DNA from: Tsukamurella sp. M9C
Lineage (GTDB): Bacteria; Actinomycetota; Actinomycetes; Mycobacteriales; Mycobacteriaceae
Assembly: GCF_020169415.1 (NCBI RefSeq)
Contig: NZ_JAIULG010000035.1
Location: forward strand, 1 to 48,843
Direction: 5' to 3'
Length of the DNA: 48,843 nucleotides
The stretch's first letter is position 1. The number at the start of each line of letters is the position of its first letter. A model generated the notes under the pieces. The model had not been told where the DNA came from. It saw only the letters and a program-made list of their open reading frames with translations, and did no database searches. The translations under genes were made by a program, and so were the position numbers. This document shows positions 12,286 through 25,263 of the stretch, piece after piece.

Positions 12286-12518
12286 ACCGCGCTCGCAGAC
12301 CCGCGACGGGCCGGGCACGAAACCAGTCGATCAGCGAGATTCAAATCCGCGAGGCTCCCGCGCGGGTCGCGCATTAGCCACCCGCGAGGACGAAACAGCA
12401 GGTGAGGAGGCCCGCGCGCGCGACCCGACCGGCGGAATGCGACGCCCGCCCCGGTCCTTCGCCGGGGCACACACCTGAGGACGGCCGACACGGCCCGACC
12501 TGTTCCTATCGTTGCCGC
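12286..12518. other. 233-nt intergenic region ahead of the GntR operon
   Basis: No convincing gene. It contains a hairpin with perfect 7-bp arms GCCCCGG / CCGGGGC (12448-12454 and 12462-12468, loop TCCTTCG), which may end the MarR-GNAT transcript. A second inverted repeat, CGCGGGT / ACCCGCG (12361-12367 and 12380-12386), also lies here. The GntR promoter is at the right end: TATCGT at 12507-12512, 6 nt before ATG 12519. An 11-base T-loop-like stretch near 12338 lacks any tRNA stem. Confidence 0.5.
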
Positions 12519-13244
12519 ATGCCAGCGACCGAACGACCGATCCGCGCCGATTCCGCGCGCATCGTCGCCGACGTCCTGCGCCAGGCGATCCACGACGGCA
12601 CCTACCGCGGGACCCTGCCCGGCGAGGACGACCTCGGCGACCAGTTCTCCGTCTCCCGGGGCACCGTGCGCGAGGCCCTGGCGATCCTGCGCTCCGAGGG
12701 CTGGATCCGGCGGGGCCCCCGGGTGGGCACCGAGGTGATCGCCCGCACCGTCGACCACGGGCTCGACAGCCTGCGCGGGCTCCGCGAGACCCTCTCGCTG
12801 CACGGCGAGATCCGCAACCGGGTGCGCGCGGCGACGCGGCTGGTCCCGCCACCGATCGTGGCGGAGAAGCTGGGGATCCCCGCGGGCGACGAGGCGGTGT
12901 ACCTCGAGCGGCTGCGGTTCCTCAACGACGAGCCCGTGAGCCTCGACCTGACGTACCTCGTCGCCGACATCGGCGACCTGCTGCTGGAACAGGACCTGGA
13001 GAACGAGGACGTCTTCCCCCTGATCGAAGCGGTCACGGGCCGTCGCCTGGGCACCAGCGACTACTGCCTGACCGCCGCGGCGGCCGATCCGCACACCGCC
13101 GCGAACCTCGAGATCGCCACCGGCTCGCCGCTCCTGCTCTACGAGCGCCTCACCCACCTCGAGGGCGGACGCCCCGTCGACCTCGAGTACATCCGCATCC
13201 GATCCGACCGGATCACCCTGCGCGGCACCCTGCATCGCGACTGA
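12519..13244 (+). CDS. GntR/HutC-family transcriptional regulator
   Basis: 241 residues: an N-terminal GntR winged helix (about 8-75, with LPGEDDLGDQFSVSRGTVREALAILRSEGWIRRGPRVGTEV) and a C-terminal UTRA effector domain (about 90-240, with DEAVYLERLRFLNDEPVSLDLTYL and LLLYERLTHLEGGRPVDLEYIRIRSDR). It is the first gene of the operon that continues with ferredoxin, ABC transporter and flavoprotein, 26 nt upstream of the ferredoxin. It probably represses its own operon until a small ligand, likely the imported compound or a metabolite of it, binds UTRA. ATG 12519 is 6 nt after TATCGT, so it is probably leaderless. Confidence 0.88.
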   Translation: MPATERPIRADSARIVADVLRQAIHDGTYRGTLPGEDDLGDQFSVSRGTVREALAILRSEGWIRRGPRVGTEVIARTVDHGLDSLRGLRETLSLHGEIRNRVRAATRLVPPPIVAEKLGIPAGDEAVYLERLRFLNDEPVSLDLTYLVADIGDLLLEQDLENEDVFPLIEAVTGRRLGTSDYCLTAAAADPHTAANLEIATGSPLLLYERLTHLEGGRPVDLEYIRIRSDRITLRGTLHRD

Positions 13245-13270
13245 CCGCACCGACACGGAGGAACACACCC

Positions 13271-13498
13271 ATGGCACAGGTCGAACAGCGCGTCGACGTC
13301 CCCGTCACCATCGACGCCTCCCTCTGCATCGAGGGCTGCAACATCTGCATCGAGGCCTGCCCCCTCGACTCGCTGGCCCTCGACCCGAGCACCAACCGCG
13401 CCCACATGTACGTCGACGAGTGCTGGTACTGCGGGCCCTGCGCCGCGCGCTGCCCGACGGGCGCCGTCACCGTCAACATGCCCTACCTCCTGCGATAG
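13271..13498 (+). CDS. small 2x[4Fe-4S] ferredoxin (AprB/AsfB-like)
   Basis: 75 residues with two cluster-binding sets, CIEGCNICIEACPLDSL and CWYCGPCAARCPTGAVTVNMP. The first is slightly spaced out (CxxGCxxCxxACP) and the second is CxxCxxCxxxCP. The W-Y-C context and the C-terminal hydrophobic patch resemble AprB, the electron-transfer subunit of APS reductase, and AsfB of arylsulfonate metabolism. GGAGG lies 8 nt before ATG 13271. It is encoded with the flavoprotein at 16468, so it most likely shuttles electrons to or from that enzyme (inference). Confidence 0.88.
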   Translation: MAQVEQRVDVPVTIDASLCIEGCNICIEACPLDSLALDPSTNRAHMYVDECWYCGPCAARCPTGAVTVNMPYLLR

Positions 13499-13524
13499 CC
13501 CGTCCCAGCCCGGAGAACCCAGCC

Positions 13525-14865
13525 ATGACATCCACCCTGCGCGCGATCGCCGTCGTCGCCGCCACCGCCGCCCTCGCGTCCTGCTCCCTCGAGCCCGCGG
13601 CCGACGAGTCCACCCAGACCCTCGTGGTGGGCTATCAGTCCAAGACCATCAACACCGTGACCGCGGGAACCCTGCTGCGCGCCAAGGGCTTCCTCGAGAA
13701 GCGCCTCGCCGGGATCGGGAAGTTCCGCGTCGACTGGCAGGACTTCGACACCGGCGCCCCGATCACGAGCGGCATGCTCGCCGGCAAGATCCAGATCGGC
13801 TCCATGGGCGACTACCCGCTGCTGATCAACGGATCCCGCGCGCAGTCGAGCCCTGACACCGAGACCGCGATGCTCTCGGTGACCGGGTCGAGCGCGCGGG
13901 GCGCCCTCAACTCGGTGGTGGTCTCCCCCGGCTCGCCGCTGCGCTCGCTCGCGGACCTGCGGGGCAAGCAGGTCTCCGCGTCGGTCGGCTCCGCCGGGCA
14001 CGGCACCCTCGTCGCCGCGCTGAGCCGCGCGGGCATCGCCGTCGGCGATGTCACCGTCGTGAACCAGCAGCCGCAGGTCGGGGCGAGCGCGCTCGAATCC
14101 GGCCAGGTCCAGGCGCTGGCGCAGTTCGTCGCCTGGCCCGGACTCCTCGTTCGCCAGGGTAGGGCCCGCCTCCTCTACGACGGCGGCGAGCTGAACACGC
14201 CCACGCTGCACGGGGTCGTCGCCAACAAGAAGTACGCGGCGTCGCACCCGGACGTGGTGCGCGCCTTCCTCGAGGCGCAGCTCGACGCCACCGACTTCCA
14301 GCGGGAGCACCCCCTGCAGGCCGCGCAGGACGTCGCGCAGGCCAGCGGCCTCCCGGCCGAGGTCGTCTACCAGTACAACGGCCCGGGCGGCACCGACCCC
14401 AACCCGACGCTCGCCGCCCCACTCCTCGGAGCGCTCAAGGGCGACATCGGGTACCTGCAGTCGATCGGCCAGTTCGGCACACCGCTCGACGTCGACCGGT
14501 TCGTCGACCCGAAGCCCCTGGCCGACGCGCAGGTGGCGCGCGGCGGATTCCAGTACGACGCGGGCACTCCCGCGCCGAAGCCCACCGCGGAGATCTGGTT
14601 CGACGGCGCCGACGCCACCGAGACGGTCCCCGACGCGACGGCGCTGATCCGCTCGCTCGCCACGACCGACCGGAAGGTCCGCGCCGCGTACGTCTCCGAC
14701 GCGCTGACCGGAACCCGCTGGTACGCCGACCAATCACTGTGGCTGCGCGACGGCGCGACGCTCGTGCCCTTCGCCGGCCCCGACGCCCGTGACCGCTACC
14801 GCGCGGAGCACCCCGGCGCAGTCCCCGTCGAGTACCGCGCCCTCCTCGAGGAGGCCCGACGGTGA
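13525..14865 (+). CDS. lipoprotein solute-binding protein of a SsuA/NrtA-type ABC transporter, with C-terminal extension
   Basis: 446 residues. The signal peptide ends in a lipobox LASC with the modified Cys at 20, so the protein is membrane-anchored, consistent with lgt in this window. Residues about 32-340 show the NMT1/SsuA-like fold of nitrate/sulfonate/taurine binding proteins (TLVVGYQSKTINTVTAG, MLAGKIQIGSMGDYPLL, LADLRGKQVSASVGSAGHG). Residues about 345-446 are an extra domain whose pattern (AEIWFDG, VRAAYVSDALTGTRWYADQSLWLRDG, FAGPDARDRYRAEHPG) recalls the NosL-like fold. Family members usually end near residue 330-350, so this is an unusual addition. GGAGAA precedes ATG 13525; the stop overlaps the permease start by 4 nt. 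Confidence 0.83.
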   Translation: MTSTLRAIAVVAATAALASCSLEPAADESTQTLVVGYQSKTINTVTAGTLLRAKGFLEKRLAGIGKFRVDWQDFDTGAPITSGMLAGKIQIGSMGDYPLLINGSRAQSSPDTETAMLSVTGSSARGALNSVVVSPGSPLRSLADLRGKQVSASVGSAGHGTLVAALSRAGIAVGDVTVVNQQPQVGASALESGQVQALAQFVAWPGLLVRQGRARLLYDGGELNTPTLHGVVANKKYAASHPDVVRAFLEAQLDATDFQREHPLQAAQDVAQASGLPAEVVYQYNGPGGTDPNPTLAAPLLGALKGDIGYLQSIGQFGTPLDVDRFVDPKPLADAQVARGGFQYDAGTPAPKPTAEIWFDGADATETVPDATALIRSLATTDRKVRAAYVSDALTGTRWYADQSLWLRDGATLVPFAGPDARDRYRAEHPGAVPVEYRALLEEARR

Positions 14866-15701
14866 CCGCCCTCGACTCGCTCCCCGCCGCGGCGCTCCGG
14901 CGACCGGCCGCCGCTCCCGCCCGCCGCGCCGTGCTCCCGGCGTGGCCGGTGCGGGTGGCCGTCGTCGCCGCGGCGATCGGCGTCTGGCAGCTGCTCACCA
15001 CGCAGCACGTCGCGCTCGGCTGGATCCGGTTCGACACGCTCCCGTCGGCGAGCGCCGTCGCCGAGCGGTTCGCGCAGTCGGTCCGCACCGGCGAGTACTG
15101 GCTGGACCTCGCGCAGTCCCTGATCCGGATCGGCACCGGCTTCGCGGTCGCCGCGGCGCTCGGGATCGCCGCGGGCGTCGCGCTCGGCCGTTCCCGCGCC
15201 GCCGAGCTGACCTTCGGCACTCTCATCGAGCTCGTCCGGCCCATCCCCGCGATCGCGCTGGTCCCGGTGATGATCCTGCTGCTCCCGTCGTCCGAGGCGG
15301 GCATGGTCGCGATCACCGCGACGGCCGCGTTCTTCCCCATCGCGGTGAGCGTGCGGCACGCCGTCCGCGCCCTCCCGACCGTGTGGGAGGACTCCGTGCG
15401 CACCCAGGGCGGCGGCGACCTCGCCGTGCTGTGGCGCGTCGTGCTCCCCGGATCGCTGCCCGGCGTCTTCTCCGGGCTGTCGGTGGGCGTCGGCGTCGCG
15501 TGGATCTGCCTCGTCTCCGCCGAGATGATCTCCGGGCGCCTCGGAGTCGGCTACCGCACGTGGCAGTCGTACACGCTCGTCGACTACCCCGCGGTCTTCG
15601 TCGGCATGCTGACGATCGGCGTGCTCGGCTTCCTCACCTCCGCCGTCATCGAGCTGGCCGGCCGCCGGGTCACCCGCTGGCTGCCGCGGGGCGACCGATG
15701 A
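14862..15701 (+). CDS. ABC transporter permease (SsuC/TauC-like)
   Basis: 279 residues with about six membrane segments and the binding-protein-dependent permease signature (EAA loop region) around EDSVRTQGGGDLAVLWRVVLPGSLPGVFSGLSVGVGVAW. SsuC, TauC and NrtB share this layout. It would form the channel with the ATPase at 15698 and receive substrate from the lipoprotein at 13525. The GTG start overlaps the upstream stop (GTGA) and the stop overlaps the ATPase ATG (ATGA). Confidence 0.9.
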   Translation: MTALDSLPAAALRRPAAAPARRAVLPAWPVRVAVVAAAIGVWQLLTTQHVALGWIRFDTLPSASAVAERFAQSVRTGEYWLDLAQSLIRIGTGFAVAAALGIAAGVALGRSRAAELTFGTLIELVRPIPAIALVPVMILLLPSSEAGMVAITATAAFFPIAVSVRHAVRALPTVWEDSVRTQGGGDLAVLWRVVLPGSLPGVFSGLSVGVGVAWICLVSAEMISGRLGVGYRTWQSYTLVDYPAVFVGMLTIGVLGFLTSAVIELAGRRVTRWLPRGDR

Positions 15702-16450
15702 GCGCCCCGGCGGTCAGCCCGCCCGCGCAGCGCGACGGGCTGCGACTCAAACTCGACACCGTCGACCTCGGCTACCGCGGCGCGACCGCCGTGCGCGCGC
15801 TCGACCTCACCGTCGAGCCCGGCGAACGCCTGGTTCTGACGGGCCCGTCGGGCTGCGGCAAGTCGACCGTGCTGCGCGCGCTCGCCGGGCTGCTCCGCAC
15901 CGACGCCGGTGTCGTCCTCGCCGACGGTGCCCCCGTGACCGGCCCGGATCGCGACCGCGCCATGGTCTTCCAGGAGGACGCCCTCCTGCCCTGGCGCACT
16001 GTCGAGAACAACGTGCGGCTCGCGCTCGCGCTGCGGGGCGTGGCCCGGCACCGTCGCGCCGACGAGGCCCGGCGGTGGCTCGCCGAGGTCGGGCTGACCG
16101 CCTACGCGAAGCACCTGCCCCGCGAGCTGTCCGGCGGCATGCGGCAGCGGGTCCAGCTCGCCCGCGGCCTCGCGGGTGCGCCCCGCGCCGTACTCATGGA
16201 CGAGCCCTTCGGCGCGCTCGACGCGCAGACCCGCGGCGACATGCAGCGGCTGCTGCTGCGCACGCTCGACGCCCACCCCGCCACCGTAGTCTTCGTCACC
16301 CACGACGTGGACGAGGCGATCTTGCTCGGCGACCGCATCGTCGTCCTCGGCCGCCGCGGCGAACCCGTCCGCGCGTCCTTCGACGTGCGCCGCGCACCGT
16401 CGGCCTCCGCCCTGCGCGCGGGCGTCGTCGACGCCCTCACCGACCGCTGA
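15698..16450 (+). CDS. ABC transporter ATP-binding protein (SsuB/TauB-like)
   Basis: 250 residues with Walker A GPSGCGKST, the Q-loop in MVFQEDALLPWRTVENNV, signature LSGGMRQRVQLARGLAGAPRAVLMDEPFGALD (signature plus Walker B and D-loop) and the switch His in FVTHDVDEA. The LLPW-T-xxNV context is typical of the nitrate/sulfonate/taurine importer ATPases. It powers the importer encoded just upstream. The flavoprotein gene begins 17 nt after its stop. Confidence 0.93.
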   Translation: MSAPAVSPPAQRDGLRLKLDTVDLGYRGATAVRALDLTVEPGERLVLTGPSGCGKSTVLRALAGLLRTDAGVVLADGAPVTGPDRDRAMVFQEDALLPWRTVENNVRLALALRGVARHRRADEARRWLAEVGLTAYAKHLPRELSGGMRQRVQLARGLAGAPRAVLMDEPFGALDAQTRGDMQRLLLRTLDAHPATVVFVTHDVDEAILLGDRIVVLGRRGEPVRASFDVRRAPSASALRAGVVDALTDR

Positions 16451-16467
16451 CCAGCATCAGGAGTTCC

Positions 16468-19149
16468 ATGGACATCCCCGAGATCGCCGACCGCACCCGC
16501 CTGGACTGCGACGTGCTCGTGATCGGCGGCGGGACCGCCGGCACGATGGCGGCGCTCACCGCGGCCGAGGCCGGCGCCGACGTGCTGCTGCTCGACAAGT
16601 CGCACGTGCGGCACTCCGGCGCGCTGGCGATGGGCATGGACGGCGTGAACAACGCCGTCATCCCCGGCAAGGCCGCGCCCGAGGACTACGTCGCCGAGAT
16701 CACCCGCGCCAACGACGGCATCGTCAACCAGAGCACCGTCTACCAGACGGCGACCCGTGGTTTCGCGATGATCCAGCGCCTCGAGCGGTACGGCGTGAAG
16801 TTCGAGAAGGACGAGTACGGCGAGTACGCCGTGCGTCGCGTGCACCGGTCCGGCTCGTACGTGCTGCCGATGCCCGAGGGCAAGGACGTGAAGAAGGCGC
16901 TGTACCGGGTGCTGCGGCAGAAGAAGATGCGCGAGCGCATCCGGATCGAGAACCGCGTGATGCCGGTGCGGGTGCTGACCACCGGCAGCGGGTCCGATCG
17001 GCGGGCCGTGGGCGCGGTCGCCTTCAACACGCGGACGGGCGAATTCGTCGAGATCCGTGCCGGCGCGGTCGTGCTGGCGACGGGGCCGTGCGGCCGGCTG
17101 GGCCTGCCCGCGTCGGGGTATCTCTACGGCACCTACGAGAACCCGGCGAACGCCGGCGACGGTTACGCGATGGCCTATCACGCGGGCGCCGAGCTCAGCG
17201 GCATCGAGTGCTTCCAGATCAATCCGCTGATCAAGGACTACAACGGGCCCGCGTGCGCCTACGTGGCGAACCCGTTCGGCGGCTACCAGGTGAACGCCCG
17301 GGGCGAGCGCTTCGTGGATTCGGATTACTGGTCCGGCCAGATGATCGCCGAGGTGAAGTCCGAGATCGATTCCGCCCGTGGGCCGATCTACCTCAAGGTC
17401 TCGCATCTGCCGGAGGAGACGCTCGGCGAGCTGGAGTCGATCCTGCACACCACCGAGCGACCGACGCGTGGCACCTTCCACGCGAACCGCGGCCACGACT
17501 ACCGCACGCACGACATCGAGATGCACGTCTCCGAGATCGGGCTGTGCGGTGGGCATTCCGCATCCGGGGTGTGGGTCGACGAGAACGCCCGCACCACCGT
17601 GCCCGGCCTGTACGCGGCGGGCGACCTGGCGTGCGTGCCGCACAACTACATGATCGGCGCCTTCGTCTTCGGCGAGCTTGCCGGGGCTGACGCGGTGCGG
17701 CACGCGCGCACGACGACACCCGTGGCGGACGGCCTGGAGTCGCAGGTCGCCGCCGCGCACGAGCTGATCTACGGCCCGGCGCGCAGGCCCGACGGTCCGC
17801 CGCAGCCCCAGGTCGAGTACAAGCTGCGCCGCTTCGTCAACGACTACATCGCGCCGCCGAAGACCGCACCGAAGCTGACCATCGCGATCGAGACCTTCGA
17901 GCGGATGCGCGGCGAGGTGGACGGCCTCGGGGCGCGGACGCCGCACGAGCTGATGCGCTGCGTGGAGGTCTCGTTCATCCGCGACTGCGCGGAGATGGCG
18001 GCGAAGGCGTCGCTGGCGCGCACCGAATCCCGGTGGGGGCTCTACCACGACCGCCCGGATCTGCCGGAGCGCGACGACGAGCGGTGGGGCCGGCACCTGA
18101 ACCTGAGGTTGGGCGCCGACGGCGAGATGGAGTTCCTGACCCGGCCCGTGGCGCCGTACCTGGTGGCCGTCGACGAGTTCGACCACATCCCGGGGTCGTC
18201 GGCCACCGTCGAGGTGCTGGGGCCGCTGGCGGTGGCGCCGATCGGCGCGATCCCCGCTGCGGCCGAACGGCCGGCATCGGTGCCCGCGGTATCGCCACGG
18301 CTGCGCGAGCTGCTCGTGCTGGACGGCCCCTCCGTCGCGGAACTCTCTCCGTTCCTGTCCGATCCGGACACGACGGTGCGGCGCAGCGCGGTGTCCTTCC
18401 TCGTCGAGGGCGCGCCCGACGGCTTCCTCGCTCCCCTCGTCGCTGCGCTCGGCGACGCGGACGCCGCGGTCCGGCGCGCGGCCGCCGCGGGTCTGATCGA
18501 GCTGGTGGAGGTGCTGCCGTCCGCGGACGGGCTCGCCGAGTTCCTCGGCTCGGCGGACGCCGTGGTGCGGGCGGCCGTCGGCAACCTCCTGCGCTCGCTC
18601 AAGGCCGGGACGGTGGAGCAGTTCGCCGCCCTGCTCGGCGACGGCGACCATCGCGTACGCGTGGTGGGCGTGAGCGGGCTGGTCTCCCACGACGATTGGG
18701 CCGCGCTGGCGCCCGCGACCGACGACGCCAACCGGGAGGTGCGGATCGCCGTGGCCGCGGGCCTGGCGACCGTGGGCCGCGGCGGTGTCGATGCGGTGCG
18801 CGGCCTCGCCGGTGACCACGACCCGCTGGTCCGAGCCGCGGCTTTCGAGGCCCTGGGCGTGCTCGGCGATGCCACTGACCTCGACCTGCTCGGTGCCGGC
18901 CTCGCCGATCGGGCGTGGCAGGTGCGGCAGGGGGCGGCGCGGGGCGCCGTCGCGCTGGGGCCCGACGGTGCCGTCGCCGCACTCGAGTCCGCCCTCGGCG
19001 ACCCGCACCTGGACGTGCGCAAGGCGGCCGTCGTGACGCTCCGAACGTGGCCGGAGGTGCCGGCGGTCGCCGCCGCACTCACCGCCGCGCTGGAGGACTC
19101 CGACGCCGACGTCCGCGCGCACGCGCGGCTGGCACTCGCGGCAGTGTGA
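16468..19149 (+). CDS. AprA/AsfA-like FAD flavoprotein fused to HEAT repeats
   Basis: 893 residues. Residues 1 to about 560 are a fumarate reductase/SdhA/AprA-superfamily flavoprotein: Rossmann motif VLVIGGGTAGTMAA (17-30), FAD contacts in LLDKSHVRHSGALAMGMDG, VVLATGPCGRLGLPASG, and the C-terminal FAD motif VPGLYAAGDLACVPHNYMIGAFVFGELAG. A SdhA-like helical region follows (KLRRFVNDYIAPPK ... RWGLYHDRPDLPERDD). From about residue 610 to the end there are roughly nine PBS-lyase-type HEAT repeats (for example DPDTTVRRSAVSFLVEG, DADAAVRRAAAAGLIEL, DPHLDVRKAAVVTLRTW). With the ferredoxin and SsuABC-like importer this resembles asfAB, the arylsulfonate reductase pair of Pseudomonas. A role in reductive release of sulfur from a sulfonate is an inference; the HEAT array may dock the ferredoxin. 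Confidence 0.82.
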   Translation: MDIPEIADRTRLDCDVLVIGGGTAGTMAALTAAEAGADVLLLDKSHVRHSGALAMGMDGVNNAVIPGKAAPEDYVAEITRANDGIVNQSTVYQTATRGFAMIQRLERYGVKFEKDEYGEYAVRRVHRSGSYVLPMPEGKDVKKALYRVLRQKKMRERIRIENRVMPVRVLTTGSGSDRRAVGAVAFNTRTGEFVEIRAGAVVLATGPCGRLGLPASGYLYGTYENPANAGDGYAMAYHAGAELSGIECFQINPLIKDYNGPACAYVANPFGGYQVNARGERFVDSDYWSGQMIAEVKSEIDSARGPIYLKVSHLPEETLGELESILHTTERPTRGTFHANRGHDYRTHDIEMHVSEIGLCGGHSASGVWVDENARTTVPGLYAAGDLACVPHNYMIGAFVFGELAGADAVRHARTTTPVADGLESQVAAAHELIYGPARRPDGPPQPQVEYKLRRFVNDYIAPPKTAPKLTIAIETFERMRGEVDGLGARTPHELMRCVEVSFIRDCAEMAAKASLARTESRWGLYHDRPDLPERDDERWGRHLNLRLGADGEMEFLTRPVAPYLVAVDEFDHIPGSSATVEVLGPLAVAPIGAIPAAAERPASVPAVSPRLRELLVLDGPSVAELSPFLSDPDTTVRRSAVSFLVEGAPDGFLAPLVAALGDADAAVRRAAAAGLIELVEVLPSADGLAEFLGSADAVVRAAVGNLLRSLKAGTVEQFAALLGDGDHRVRVVGVSGLVSHDDWAALAPATDDANREVRIAVAAGLATVGRGGVDAVRGLAGDHDPLVRAAAFEALGVLGDATDLDLLGAGLADRAWQVRQGAARGAVALGPDGAVAALESALGDPHLDVRKAAVVTLRTWPEVPAVAAALTAALEDSDADVRAHARLALAAV

Positions 19150-19759: not shown

Positions 19760-20146
19760 CTAGACGGTGAAGCCCAGGGCGCGCAGCTGCTCGCGGCCGT
19801 CGTCGGTGATCTTGTCCGGGCCCCACGGCGGCATCCAGACCCAGTTGATCTTGGCGTCGGTGGCGAGGCCGGACGAGACCAGCGCGGCGCGGGTCTGGTC
19901 CTCGATGACGTCGGTCAGCGGGCACGCCGCCGAGGTCAGGGTCATGTCGATGGTGACCGCGGCGTCGTCGTCGACCCGCAGGTCGTAGACGAGGCCCAGG
20001 TCGACCACGTTGATGCCCAGCTCGGGGTCGACCACGTCACGCATGGCCTCCTCGACGTCGAACAGGGTGGGCAGGTTCAGCGGGTTGTCGCCGGCCTGCG
20101 CCGGGTCGGCCGCGGTGCCGGCGGCCTCAGCAGTGTTCTCGCTCAT
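19760..20146 (-). CDS. sufT: SufT-type metal-sulfur cluster assembly factor
   Basis: 128 residues of the MIP18/DUF59 family: DVEEAMRDVVDPELGINVVDLGLVYDLRVD, then MTLTSAACPLTDVIEDQTRAAL with the conserved reactive Cys, then VWMPPWGPDKITDDGREQLRALGF. It helps mature Fe-S proteins downstream of the SUF scaffold. Last suf gene: its ATG overlaps the sufU stop (ATGA), and GAGGAG lies ahead of the ATG. An acidic, Ala-rich N-terminal 25 residues precede the domain. Confidence 0.93.
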   Translation of the reverse strand: MSENTAEAAGTAADPAQAGDNPLNLPTLFDVEEAMRDVVDPELGINVVDLGLVYDLRVDDDAAVTIDMTLTSAACPLTDVIEDQTRAALVSSGLATDAKINWVWMPPWGPDKITDDGREQLRALGFTV

Positions 20147-20600
20147 GCCGTCTTCTCCTCCGAGTCGATGATCTGGGACAGCGCGTCCTTGAACGCCATC
20201 CAGCCGAGCAGTGCGCACTTGACGCGCGCGGGGTACTTCGCGACGCCGGCGAAGGCGATGCCGTCACCGATGAGGTCCTCGTCGCCCTCGACCTGGCCCC
20301 GGGACTGCAGCATCTCCGTGTAGGACTGCAGCATCTTCAGAGCGTCGCCGACGGGCTCGCCGATCACCTGGTCGGTGAGGACCGAGGTGGAGGCCTGCGA
20401 GATCGAGCAGCCCTGGCCGTCGTAGGAGACGTCGACGACGGTCTCGTGGTCGTCGGACAGGTGCACCCGCAGGGTCACCTCGTCGCCGCAGGTGGGGTTG
20501 ACGTGGTGGACCTCGGCCTCGAAGGGCTCGCGCAGCCCGCGGCCGTGCGGGTGCTTGTAGTGGTCCAGGATCACGTCCTGGTACATCTGCTCCATGCGCA

Positions 20601-20601
<1 letters not shown>
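20143..20601 (-). CDS. sufU: SufU sulfur-transfer protein of Fe-S assembly
   Basis: 152 residues, IscU-like fold, with the three conserved Cys in NPTCGDEVTLRV, GQGCSISQAS and VKCALLGWMAF plus the Asp next to the first Cys. In Gram-positive bacteria SufU is a zinc-dependent acceptor that takes persulfide sulfur from SufS. ATG 20601 overlaps the sufS stop by one base (TGATG); a second in-frame ATG two codons later is possible. Confidence 0.95.
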
Positions 20602-22639
<2,038 letters not shown>

Positions 22640-22657
22640 AATGATTCCCTATCAGTC

Positions 22658-23833
22658 TTAGACGCCGGCGGTGGCGAGTTCGTTCTCGATGGCTGCGGAG
22701 AGCCGCTCACGCAGCTCGGGGACGGAGATCCGGTCGATCAGCTCCTGGAAGAAGCCGCGCACGACCAGGCGGCGGGCCTCGTCCTCGGGGATGCCGCGCG
22801 AGCGCAGGTAGAACAGCTGCTCGTCGTCGAACCGGCCGGTGGCGCTGGCGTGGCCCGCGCCCTCGATCTCGCCGGTCTCGATCTCCAGGTTCGGCACCGA
22901 GTCGGCGCGGGCACCGTCGGTGAGGACCAGGTTGCGGTTGAGCTCGAAGGTGTCGGTGCCCTCGGCCTCGGCGCGGATCAGCACGTCGCCGACCCACACG
23001 GTGTGCGCGTCGGGCCGCTTCGAGGACGGATCGCCCTGCAGCGCGCCCTTGTAGACCACGTTCGACTTGCAGTTCGGCACCGAGTGGTCGACCAGCAGGC
23101 GCTGCTCGAGGTGCTGCCCGTCGTCGGCGAAGTAGAGGCCGAACAGCTCGGCGTTGCCGCCGGGGGCGTCGAACTGCACTCGCGGAGTCATGCGGACGAG
23201 CTCGCCGCCGAGCTGCACCGCGAAGTGCCGGACGTGGGCGTCGCGGCCCACGCGCACGTGGTGCTGGGTGACCCACACGGCGTCGTCGGCGAAGTCCTGC
23301 GCGTCGATGATCTGCAGCGCCGCACCGTCGCCGAGGATGATCTCGATGTTCTCGGCGACCGTGCCCGAACCGGTGTGATCGAGCACGACCACGGCGCGGG
23401 CGTGCCGCTCGAGCCGCACCTGGACGTGGGTGAAGGCCGTCTTGCCCTCGCCCGGTCCGGCGATCCGCACGAAGACGGGCTCCGCGACCTCGGCCTCCTT
23501 GGCGACGGTCAGCACGAAGGCCTCCGTCATGGAGGTGAAGGCCTGCGCCGCGACGCGGTCGAAGGGCGTGCCGCCCTGGCCGAGGCGCTCGTCGCCCTTG
23601 GCGACGGTCTCGAAGGTCACGCCCTCGGGCGTGGCGTCGACGGTGGCGGTCACGGCCCCGTCGGCCTGGGCGGAACCGTCGTGCAGCCCCTTGAGGCGGC
23701 GCAGCGGCGTGAACCGCCAGGCCTCGTCGCGGTGGCTGGGGATCTCGAAGGCGGCCGCGTCGAAGGACGTGAACAGCTCGCCCTTGTTGGCGACGGGGTG
23801 GGCCTCGACGGCCTCGTTGAGAGTGTTGCTCAC
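22658..23833 (-). CDS. sufD: SufD scaffold protein of Fe-S assembly
   Basis: 391 residues. The C-terminal half is a beta-helix with the conserved HSVPNCKSNVVYKG, GHASATGRFDDEQLFYLRSRGI and EARRLVVRGFFQELIDRI stretches of the SufBD family; the N-terminus has EAWRFTPLRRLKG. GTG 23833 shares one base with the sufB stop (TAGTG). Works as the SufB/SufC partner. Confidence 0.95.
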   Translation of the reverse strand: MSNTLNEAVEAHPVANKGELFTSFDAAAFEIPSHRDEAWRFTPLRRLKGLHDGSAQADGAVTATVDATPEGVTFETVAKGDERLGQGGTPFDRVAAQAFTSMTEAFVLTVAKEAEVAEPVFVRIAGPGEGKTAFTHVQVRLERHARAVVVLDHTGSGTVAENIEIILGDGAALQIIDAQDFADDAVWVTQHHVRVGRDAHVRHFAVQLGGELVRMTPRVQFDAPGGNAELFGLYFADDGQHLEQRLLVDHSVPNCKSNVVYKGALQGDPSSKRPDAHTVWVGDVLIRAEAEGTDTFELNRNLVLTDGARADSVPNLEIETGEIEGAGHASATGRFDDEQLFYLRSRGIPEDEARRLVVRGFFQELIDRISVPELRERLSAAIENELATAGV

Positions 23834-25263
23834 TAGCCCACGGACCCTTCCATCTGCAGTTCGATCAGGCGGTTCAGCTCGAGCGCGTACTCCATCGGCA
23901 GCTCCTTGGCGATGGGCTCGACGAAGCCGCGCACCACCATGGCCATGGCCTCGTCCTCGGTGAGGCCGCGGCTCATCAGGTAGAAGAGCTGGTCGTCGGA
24001 GACCTTCGAGACGGTGGCCTCGTGGCCCATCGTCACGTCGTCCTCGCGGATGTCGACGTACGGGTAGGTGTCCGAGCGGGAGATCGTGTCGACCAGCAGC
24101 GCGTCGCACTTCACGGTGGACTTGCTGCCGTGCGCGCCCTTGTTGATCTGGATCAGGCCGCGGTAGCTCGCCCGGCCGCCGCCGCGGGCGACCGACTTGC
24201 TGACGATGTTGCTCGACGTGTTCGGCGCGAAGTGCACCATCTTGGAGCCGGTGTCCTGGTGCTGGCCCTCGCCGGCGAAGGCCACGGAGAGCACCTCACC
24301 CTTGGCGTGCTCGCCCATCATCCACACGGCCGGGTACTTCATGGTGACCTTGGAGCCGATGTTGCCGTCGATCCACTCCATGGTGGCGCCGGCCTCGGCC
24401 TTGGCCCGCTTGGTGACCAGGTTGTAGACGTTGTTCGACCAGTTCTGGATGGTCGTGTAGCGGCAGCGGCCGCCCTTCTTGACGATGATCTCGACGACCG
24501 CGGAGTGCAGCGAGTCCGACTTGTAGATCGGCGCGGTGCAGCCCTCGACGTAGTGCACGTAGGCGTCCTCGTCGACGATGATCAGGGTGCGCTCGAACTG
24601 GCCCATGTTCTCGGTGTTGATCCGGAAGTAGGCCTGCAGCGGGATGTCCACGTGGACGCCCTTGGGCACGTAGATGAACGAGCCGCCCGACCACACGGCC
24701 GTGTTCAGCGCGGAGAACTTGTTGTCGCCCGCGGGGATCACCGAGCCGAAGTACTCCTCGAAGAGCTCCGGGTGCTCGCGCAGACCGGTGTCGGTGTCCA
24801 TGAAGATGACACCCTTCTCCTCCAGGTCGGCGCGGATCGAGTGGTAGACGACCTCGGACTCGTACTGGGCGGCGACGCCGGCGACCAGGCGCTGCTTCTC
24901 CGCCTCGGGGATGCCGAGCTTGTCGTAGGTGTTCTTGATGTCCTCGGGCAGGTCCTCCCAGGACTCGGCCTGCTTCTCCGAGGAGCGCACGAAGTACTTG
25001 ATGTTGTCGAAGTCGATGCCGTCGAGGTCACTGCCCCAGGAGGGCATCGGCTTCTTCTCGAAGATGCTCAGGGCCTTGAGGCGCTGGTTCAGCATCCACT
25101 CCGACTCGTTCTTCTTGCCGGAGATGTCGGCGACCACGGCCTCGGAGAGGCCGCGCTGCGCCGAGGCGCCGGCGGCGTCGGAATCGTGCCAGCCGTAGCC
25201 GTAGGTGCCCAGGGAGGCGATGGTCTCCTCCTGGGACAGCGGGCCGTTCTCGACCGTTGTCAT
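23833..25263 (-). CDS. sufB: SufB scaffold protein of Fe-S assembly
   Basis: 476 residues, the normal intein-free length; M. tuberculosis SufB carries an intein, and none is present here. Conserved blocks include [39 protein letters not shown] with the Fe-S related Cys, [19 protein letters not shown], and [22 protein letters not shown] near the C-terminus. It carries the nascent cluster in SufBC2D. ATG 25263 overlaps the sufR stop (ATGA). Confidence 0.97.

Follow-up and report, generated by a model that had tools for sequence, protein, structure and literature searches.

The 48,843-nucleotide stretch of DNA analysed here (the window), from the soil actinobacterium Tsukamurella sp. M9C (genome 4.73 Mb), carries a six-gene operon that combines a GntR-type regulator, a two-cluster ferredoxin, an importer of the SsuABC type, and a large flavoprotein akin to the reductases of adenosine 5'-phosphosulfate (APS) and 3'-phosphoadenosine 5'-phosphosulfate (PAPS). 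The operon may serve the uptake of a sulfonate-type organosulfur compound as a sulfur source, with an AprAB-like reductase releasing sulfite from it, a reading whose probability is put at roughly 0.47. Gene context and kinship both point to a link with sulfur, and kinship alone suggests the reductive character of the reaction.

All six genes lie on the plus strand between positions 12519 and 19149 (Table 1), with intergenic gaps of 26, 26 and 17 nt and two 4-nt overlaps, in agreement with the first-pass annotation, which had described six same-strand genes with 4-nt overlaps or gaps of at most 26 nt. The same genes in the same order (GntR regulator, ferredoxin, SsuABC-like importer, flavoprotein) are found in 77 of the 80 relatives retained from 554, and given this conservation the arrangement is not due to chance. 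Three of the 77 (L043, L045, L060) have extra genes or an insertion, and in L071 and L080 the operon is cut by a contig end. The nearest named relatives are four Tsukamurella (flavoprotein identity 79-94%); among the other carriers of the cassette, many of them soil bacteria, are Nocardia, Rhodococcus, Mycolicibacterium, Nonomuraea and further actinobacteria, and outside this group rhizobia, Acinetobacter, Paraburkholderia with its relatives, and some cyanobacteria. A family search of 101 genomes found 21 that pass the cut-off of the NCBIfam model PRK13800 (8 of 16 within the genus), to which G014, with a fragmented flavoprotein gene, is additional; the cut-off of PRK08275 is passed in 12 of 396 genomes of a phylum sample. 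Decayed flavoprotein copies, each consisting of several separate matches, lie at G014:C1:2534609-2537265 and G023:C1:763727-764981. A record labelled Acidobacteriaceae (CAJCHX010000375.1; L039/L175) encodes a 78% identical flavoprotein and is probably a mislabelled assembly, and two records labelled Acinetobacter phage (CAKLQF020000010.1 and CAKLQH020000018.1) carry the flavoprotein gene, likely as bacterial DNA within phage records.

The flavoprotein is composed of FAD_binding_2 and Succ_DH_flav_C domains followed by HEAT repeats and matches PRK13800 over its full length (residues 1-891; 1569 bits against a cut-off of 1196), so that it is a member of that family; L117, the only relative with a separate HEAT gene to be scanned, passes PRK08275. 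Both families are uninformatively named, and a function was found attached to neither. The architecture, which the first-pass annotation had regarded as undescribed, thus already exists as a sequence family under an uninformative name, while a functional study of the operon was not found in the open-access literature. Nor is the gene set mentioned in the accessible parts of five papers on sulfur limitation (PMC7661421, PMC8557817, PMC13352529, PMC2491639, PMC12581299), whose strains may or may not carry it.

Comparison with proteins of known structure places the flavoprotein beside enzymes that reduce activated sulfate. The best solved match is the alpha subunit of a PAPS reductase (8a8o, 194 bits), followed by an APS reductase (107 bits). 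An alignment was made of the window protein and 16 further members of its clade with five APS/PAPS-type proteins and succinate dehydrogenases, and in a tree, rooted at its midpoint and rebuilt without two very long branches, the 17 clade rows join the five APS/PAPS-type rows, apart from the succinate dehydrogenases and from a candidate AsfA, with support of 90/81, which falls under the tool's own 95/80 star. A phylogeny against AprA, AsfA and SdhA had been proposed as a check, and in this long-branch tree the flavoprotein does not fall inside the fumarate reductases. Structure match, residues, tree, and a Cys-Trp (CW) motif in the ferredoxin bear out the earlier proposal of an AprA-type flavoprotein paired with an AprB-type ferredoxin. 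Because the tree, the motifs and the ferredoxin partner place the protein beside the APS/PAPS reductases, the PRK13800 name "fumarate reductase/succinate dehydrogenase" looks wrong.

The active site retains part of the APS-reductase pattern and replaces another part. Asn74, Lys267 and Asp268 (numbering of the Archaeoglobus fulgidus APS reductase, used below) are kept in the clade alignment, and a Gly-His pair at residues 362-363 of the window protein is shared with the APS/PAPS types, this stretch being unread in the Archaeoglobus row. Arg265 and Trp234, which we take to be APS-holding residues in A. fulgidus, are retained in all five APS/PAPS-type rows and are replaced in 17 of 17 clade members by Leu (residue 254 of the window protein) and Tyr (residue 223), respectively. 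Tyr95 is replaced by Glu and Gln145 by Val, again in 17 of 17; Gln145 is named as an APS-holding residue in the available portion of PMC10322725. Judged from the alignment, the pocket departs consistently from the APS-reductase types. Trp and Arg are still present in three distant proteins from the same phylum (L167-L169). One of these, L168, adjoins genes (identified by eye) for sulfite reductase, ATP sulfurylase and a TusA-like protein and passes the AprA model PRK06854; the window flavoprotein is 31% identical to it over 587 residues (215 bits). L168 (G427:C96) and L169 (G103:C90), from deep genomes of the actinobacterial phylum, appear to be assimilatory clusters with AprA-like, sulfite reductase and TusA-like genes, L168 having an SsuABC-like importer and ATP sulfurylase in addition, and both resemble the methanogen PAPS reductase type. 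A further, unassigned branch is represented by L170 (6804-8762), another flavoprotein of the AprA/SDH superfamily, only 28% identical, which is accompanied by a TetR-like gene and a small ferredoxin of its own.

The CW motif is present in 17 of 17 reference ferredoxins and in all 90 actinobacterial loci where a ferredoxin was found, out of 92 searched (a set that includes at least three duplicated regions). By index count, Trp52 of the window ferredoxin corresponds to Trp42, or to the residue next to it, of the PAPS reductase beta subunit, a residue proposed as an electron carrier in the available text of PMC10322725. The enzyme concerned, MtPAPSR of Methanothermococcus (8a8o), is likewise built, according to that text, from an FAD-containing alpha subunit of the fumarate-reductase superfamily and a ferredoxin with two [4Fe-4S] clusters, and the Asn/Lys/Asp/His positions and, again by index count, the ferredoxin Trp are common to both systems. 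The window operon differs in that the nucleotide-holding Arg and Trp are replaced, a HEAT tail is added, and the genes sit with an SsuABC importer, not with those of sulfate activation.

A tblastn search (E<=1e-60) returned 51 plasmid records with flavoprotein matches, of which 18, picked as annotated and varied, were studied (1 Tsukamurella and 17 proteobacteria or cyanobacteria), with partner identities domain-checked for ten representatives. All 17 non-actinobacterial neighbourhoods combine the flavoprotein with a small ferredoxin and with HEAT repeats encoded by a gene of their own (split into two in the annotation of L121). Within the stretch covered, 14 have a complete set of binding protein, permease and ATPase, 10 a DUF971 (GBBH-like) gene, and three an Mrp/NBP35 gene. 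The HEAT tail of the window protein, which the first-pass annotation did not mention, matches the separate HEAT proteins at E<1e-3 in 16 of 16 compared (best 31% over 270 residues), a similarity whose weight is limited by the general resemblance of HEAT repeats to one another. The main argument is the shared neighbourhood: in the other phyla the HEAT partner is encoded close by as a gene of its own, so that flavoprotein and HEAT partner seem to have been fused in the actinobacterial protein. FdxA and ferredoxin-NADP reductase genes adjoin one non-actinobacterial copy, and on an Acidithiobacillus caldus plasmid (L156, 10574-14035) the cassette is followed by genes for a 1153-residue FAD-dependent protein and FdxA, a possible electron supply.

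The importer resembles SsuABC and TauABC: its binding protein, its permease and its ATPase have their best matches in the SsuA_fam, SsuC and TauB models, each scoring under the curated cut-off (144.6 bits against 163.5 for SsuA_fam). It differs in an additional C-terminal NosL-like domain of the binding protein, and the operon has neither SsuD nor TauD. The first two thirds of the binding protein match taurine- and sulfonate-binding proteins, and the C-terminal third is homologous to the NosL-like domain of the proteobacterial and cyanobacterial relatives, the profile alignment of actinobacterial with non-actinobacterial binding proteins being full-length (460 columns). NosL is listed at E<=0.1 in 9 of 10 non-actinobacterial binding proteins, above the cut-off in L152 only (29.2 bits against 24), and at E<=1 in 3 of 29 actinobacterial ones, that of the window being without a match. 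The copper-binding part of NosL, presumably its start, is probably absent from the binding protein because the matches begin at model positions 20-26.

The organosulfur role put forward in the first-pass annotation stands as far as context goes, the pertinent features being the SsuA family of the binding protein and several kinds of neighbouring genes. TauE/SafE genes occur in 4 of the 17 non-actinobacterial neighbourhoods, two of which also have a YeiH-type putative sulfate exporter, and in L118 a transporter of the TSUP family (the wider TauE family) lies about 7 kb from the cassette. SsuD matches above 380 bits occur in 3 of the 92 actinobacterial loci (L044, L060, L177), and ten others have weaker family matches; the flavoprotein of L177 is followed by a ROK regulator and by SsuD-like and SfnB-like genes, the latter two under curated cut-offs, and L044 and L060 have a second SsuABC-like set. 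Relatives of TauE, YeiH, Mrp and DUF971 were found in none of the 92 loci at E<=1e-20. In the Antrihabitans YC2-6 copy (L043, 2131-6914), a second SsuABC-like set and asparaginase-like and ArgE/DapE-type deacylase genes lie between the ferredoxin and the binding protein.

From these components a pathway can be proposed. The SsuA-like lipoprotein, together with SsuB and SsuC, would import the organosulfur substrate, for which a sulfonate-type anion is the likeliest candidate, and the GntR/UTRA protein would probably keep the operon repressed until this substrate, or something derived from it, is present. The two-cluster ferredoxin and the flavoprotein would act as an AprAB-like pair in which the two clusters relay electrons to the FAD; the reduced FAD would then attack the sulfur of the substrate, yielding sulfite, which a host sulfite reductase may convert to sulfide. 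The HEAT domain may provide a scaffold or assembly platform for the ferredoxin-flavoprotein pair.

Several considerations weigh against this pathway. Reductive C–S cleavage by N5 attack is chemically harder than reduction of APS, which has a good leaving group, and the importer family also transports other anions. An importer-less form with regulator, ferredoxin and flavoprotein exists in L039, and the genome G027 (L019/L162) has such a form too. In the phylogenetic comparison, branches are still long and one APS reductase row (Archaeoglobus) contains an unread stretch. TauE/SafE, TSUP or sulfate-exporter genes are unannotated in 12 of the 17 non-actinobacterial neighbourhoods, SsuD above 380 bits is absent from 89 of the 92 actinobacterial loci within the stretch covered, and these neighbour counts are uncontrolled against random windows, the chance expectation for SsuD, judged from genome size, being well under one. 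The asparaginase- and deacylase-like genes inside the L043 copy, as well as amidases near the Nostoc and Methylocystis copies, would fit a nitrogen compound too. Finally, the pathway is built on sequence and gene context.

The last of the gene-level points leads to a fairly unlikely alternative, that the substrate contains no useful sulfur and that the enzyme reduces or oxidises another bond (C=C or C–N) as part of a pathway for using a nitrogen or carbon source. This would fit the breadth of both superfamilies, that of the importer and that of the flavoprotein, the asparaginase-, deacylase- and amidase-type neighbours just mentioned would suit it, and the Crp/Fnr regulators at 7 of the 17 non-actinobacterial copies (rhizobia, Methylobacterium) do not indicate sulfur; yet TauE/SafE, YeiH-type exporters and SsuD- and SfnB-like neighbours do, and the closest solved relatives act on sulfur. 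Two further assignments are much less probable. An assimilatory APS or PAPS reductase would account for the fold, the partner ferredoxin and the Asn/His motifs of AprAB type, as well as for distant relatives that retain the APS residues (L167-L169) or pass PRK06854 (L168), but it is very improbable given the Leu and Tyr replacements throughout the clade and the separate sulfate-assimilation genes of the host. The window protein, moreover, reaches 268.9 of the 557 bits required by PRK06854, and an SsuABC importer would be pointless for such an enzyme. Four matches of the PAPS_reduct family (cysH/cysD-type) are present in the host genome, two of them adjoining NIR_SIR-family matches on another contig (C14), so that sulfate assimilation probably proceeds independently of the operon; these sulfite reductase genes were sought with PF01077 in the host genome in place of TIGR02042, which had no match at E<=1e-60 in any of the 101 genomes and is probably the wrong model for these hosts. 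Scarcely credible, too, is a subunit of succinate dehydrogenase or of fumarate reductase, which the Succ_DH_flav_C domain and the NCBI name would make of it: in the tree the flavoprotein stands apart from the SdhA-like protein of the host itself (L002), in the alignment it lacks a stretch of HGANRLG type that the succinate dehydrogenase rows have, and the operon has no cytochrome b or SdhB partner.

Also unlikely is a helper role of the AsfAB type, in which flavoprotein and ferredoxin would feed electrons to an oxygenase encoded elsewhere, such as SsuD, and the C–S bond would be broken with O2. The first-pass annotation had argued that no oxygenase lies at the locus and that sulfur would be released reductively, an argument that fails, since SsuD-family matches elsewhere in the genome mean that an absent in-operon oxygenase does not show a reductive route. 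The host has two such matches outside the operon (422 and 268 bits; curated cut-off 518). In the 101 genomes surveyed at E<=1e-60, where none exceeds the curated cut-off, SsuD-family matches occur in 19 of 21 operon carriers versus 46 of 80 non-carriers (Fisher p 0.005, relatedness uncorrected) and, outside the genus, in 11 of 13 versus 38 of 72 (p 0.04, relatedness likewise uncorrected). Against this, SsuD takes free reduced FMN, not ferredoxin, no SsuD match at 1e-60 was obtained for the carriers G016 and G034, and the AprA-type active-site residues are partly kept, which is unexpected for a pure electron carrier. In favour of a helper role, and likewise against the reductive argument, the asf genes are described in the available part of PMC4267179 as supplying electrons during oxygenation, with AsfA and AsfB as the electron-transfer pair. 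Comparison with them depends on a candidate inferred from position: Rmet_4334/5 are named AsfA/AsfB of C. metallidurans in the accessible text of PMC2864759, and the position of Rmet_4334 was calibrated to about 923 kb from six TauD positions, paired with the six tauD gene numbers in that text, since the genome record has no gene labels in this region. A flavoprotein-ferredoxin pair at 928 kb (L211) fits, and it adjoins an SsuA-type importer; the candidates L116 (895 kb) and L133 (793 kb; a TcuA) were dropped after this calibration of gene numbers. The AsfA-like character claimed in the first-pass annotation consequently holds for the layout of flavoprotein, small ferredoxin and sulfonate-type importer, which the Pseudomonas and Cupriavidus systems share with the window operon as far as PMC4267179 and PMC2864759 were available, but is not supported as close kinship by this candidate. 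The position-inferred candidate and the window flavoprotein are 28% identical over 239 residues (62.8 bits), the best models of the candidate are TfrA, SdhA and NadB, the L211 ferredoxin lacks the CW motif (by eye), and the Asf regulator is, in the same portion of PMC4267179, a LysR protein instead of a GntR protein.

At the 17 non-actinobacterial cassettes, regulators of the GntR or UTRA type (6), Crp/Fnr (7) and LysR (2) were seen, with none seen at 2. A ROK regulator match is present in 19 of the 92 actinobacterial loci, 13 of the 14 best shown being from Nocardia, and its NCBIfam matches are to NagC/Mlc-type models only, under their cut-offs; SsuR, the sulfonate regulator of Corynebacterium, likewise belongs to the ROK proteins and may be akin to it. 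Upstream of the operon, a palindrome and a GGTGGCGCAAT box spaced by 31-34 nt occur together in 76 of 79 upstream regions versus 0 of 1580 shuffles, a count that is partly circular, since 63 of these regions also served to learn the motif; the fixed spacing is less affected. The palindrome alone is unspecific, scoring 13-18 bits at unrelated places in other loci, and the element has no match above threshold in L163-L166 (large-genome actinobacteria, probably Streptomyces). In 27 genomes the composite element has 34 matches versus 0 for a reversed control pattern; of 30 matches with loci, 9 precede this operon and 18 of the other 21 overlap a reading frame predicted by a crude gene picker, L185, L186 and L191 being intergenic. 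Rfam gave no match up to E 10 for the region preceding the operon in the window and, at gathering score, a single 5S rRNA in the upstream regions of six relatives; because these scans yielded no RNA family for the conserved stretch, it more likely represents DNA operators. A near-identical GGCGCAAT-type box recurs elsewhere in three related genomes (G194:C37:12472, G471:C62:65314, G479:C94:2544), the G479 copy (L185), the sole one inspected, being intergenic. The distance from a possible -10 hexamer to the start codon suggests that the GntR transcript is leaderless.

Table 1. Predicted genes and regulatory features of the operon (window coordinates)
Feature	Position	Strand	Basis
Palindrome-like element preceding the operon (consensus TTcggATCagCGTGATtcnAA), putative operator	12325..12346	.	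motif search
Second conserved box, consensus GGTGGCGCAAT, near-fixed distance from palindrome	12358..12379	.	motif search
Possible -10 hexamer TATCGT, 6 nt before GntR start	12507..12512	+	read by eye
GntR/UTRA transcriptional regulator, 241 aa	12519..13244	+	GntR and UTRA family matches
Ferredoxin, 75 aa, two [4Fe-4S] motifs, AprB-type CW motif	13271..13498	+	family matches, motif comparison
SsuA/TauA-type substrate-binding protein, lipoprotein-like, 446 aa	13525..14865	+	family matches
SsuC-type permease (BPD_transp_1)	14862..15701	+	family matches
SsuB/TauB-type ATPase (ABC_tran)	15698..16450	+	family matches
AprA/PAPS-reductase-like FAD flavoprotein (residues ~1-570) fused to HEAT-repeat domain (~590-893)	16468..19149	+	

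Directly downstream, on the minus strand at positions 19760-24109 of the window, lie genes for SUF iron-sulfur assembly (translations read by eye). The downstream neighbours differ in a Tsukamurella tyrosinosolvens record (L122), so that the closeness of the SUF genes may be accidental.

Taken with the mapped changes in its pocket, the flavoprotein appears to be an AprAB-type enzyme that has shifted to a new substrate. A broader generalization, that AprA-derived reductases freeing sulfite from imported organosulfur compounds without oxygen form a widespread and unrecognised class, with a HEAT scaffold fused to them in the actinobacteria, is at present doubtful. Sulfonates dominate among the organic sulfur sources of soil, according to the available part of PMC4267179. 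If the proposed pathway is true, bacteria would have another way of obtaining sulfur from sulfonates, in addition to the FMNH2 monooxygenases and the 2-oxoglutarate dioxygenases. A reductive sulfonate enzyme of this kind would work without oxygen, and it would explain a gene set that now bears the name of succinate dehydrogenase.

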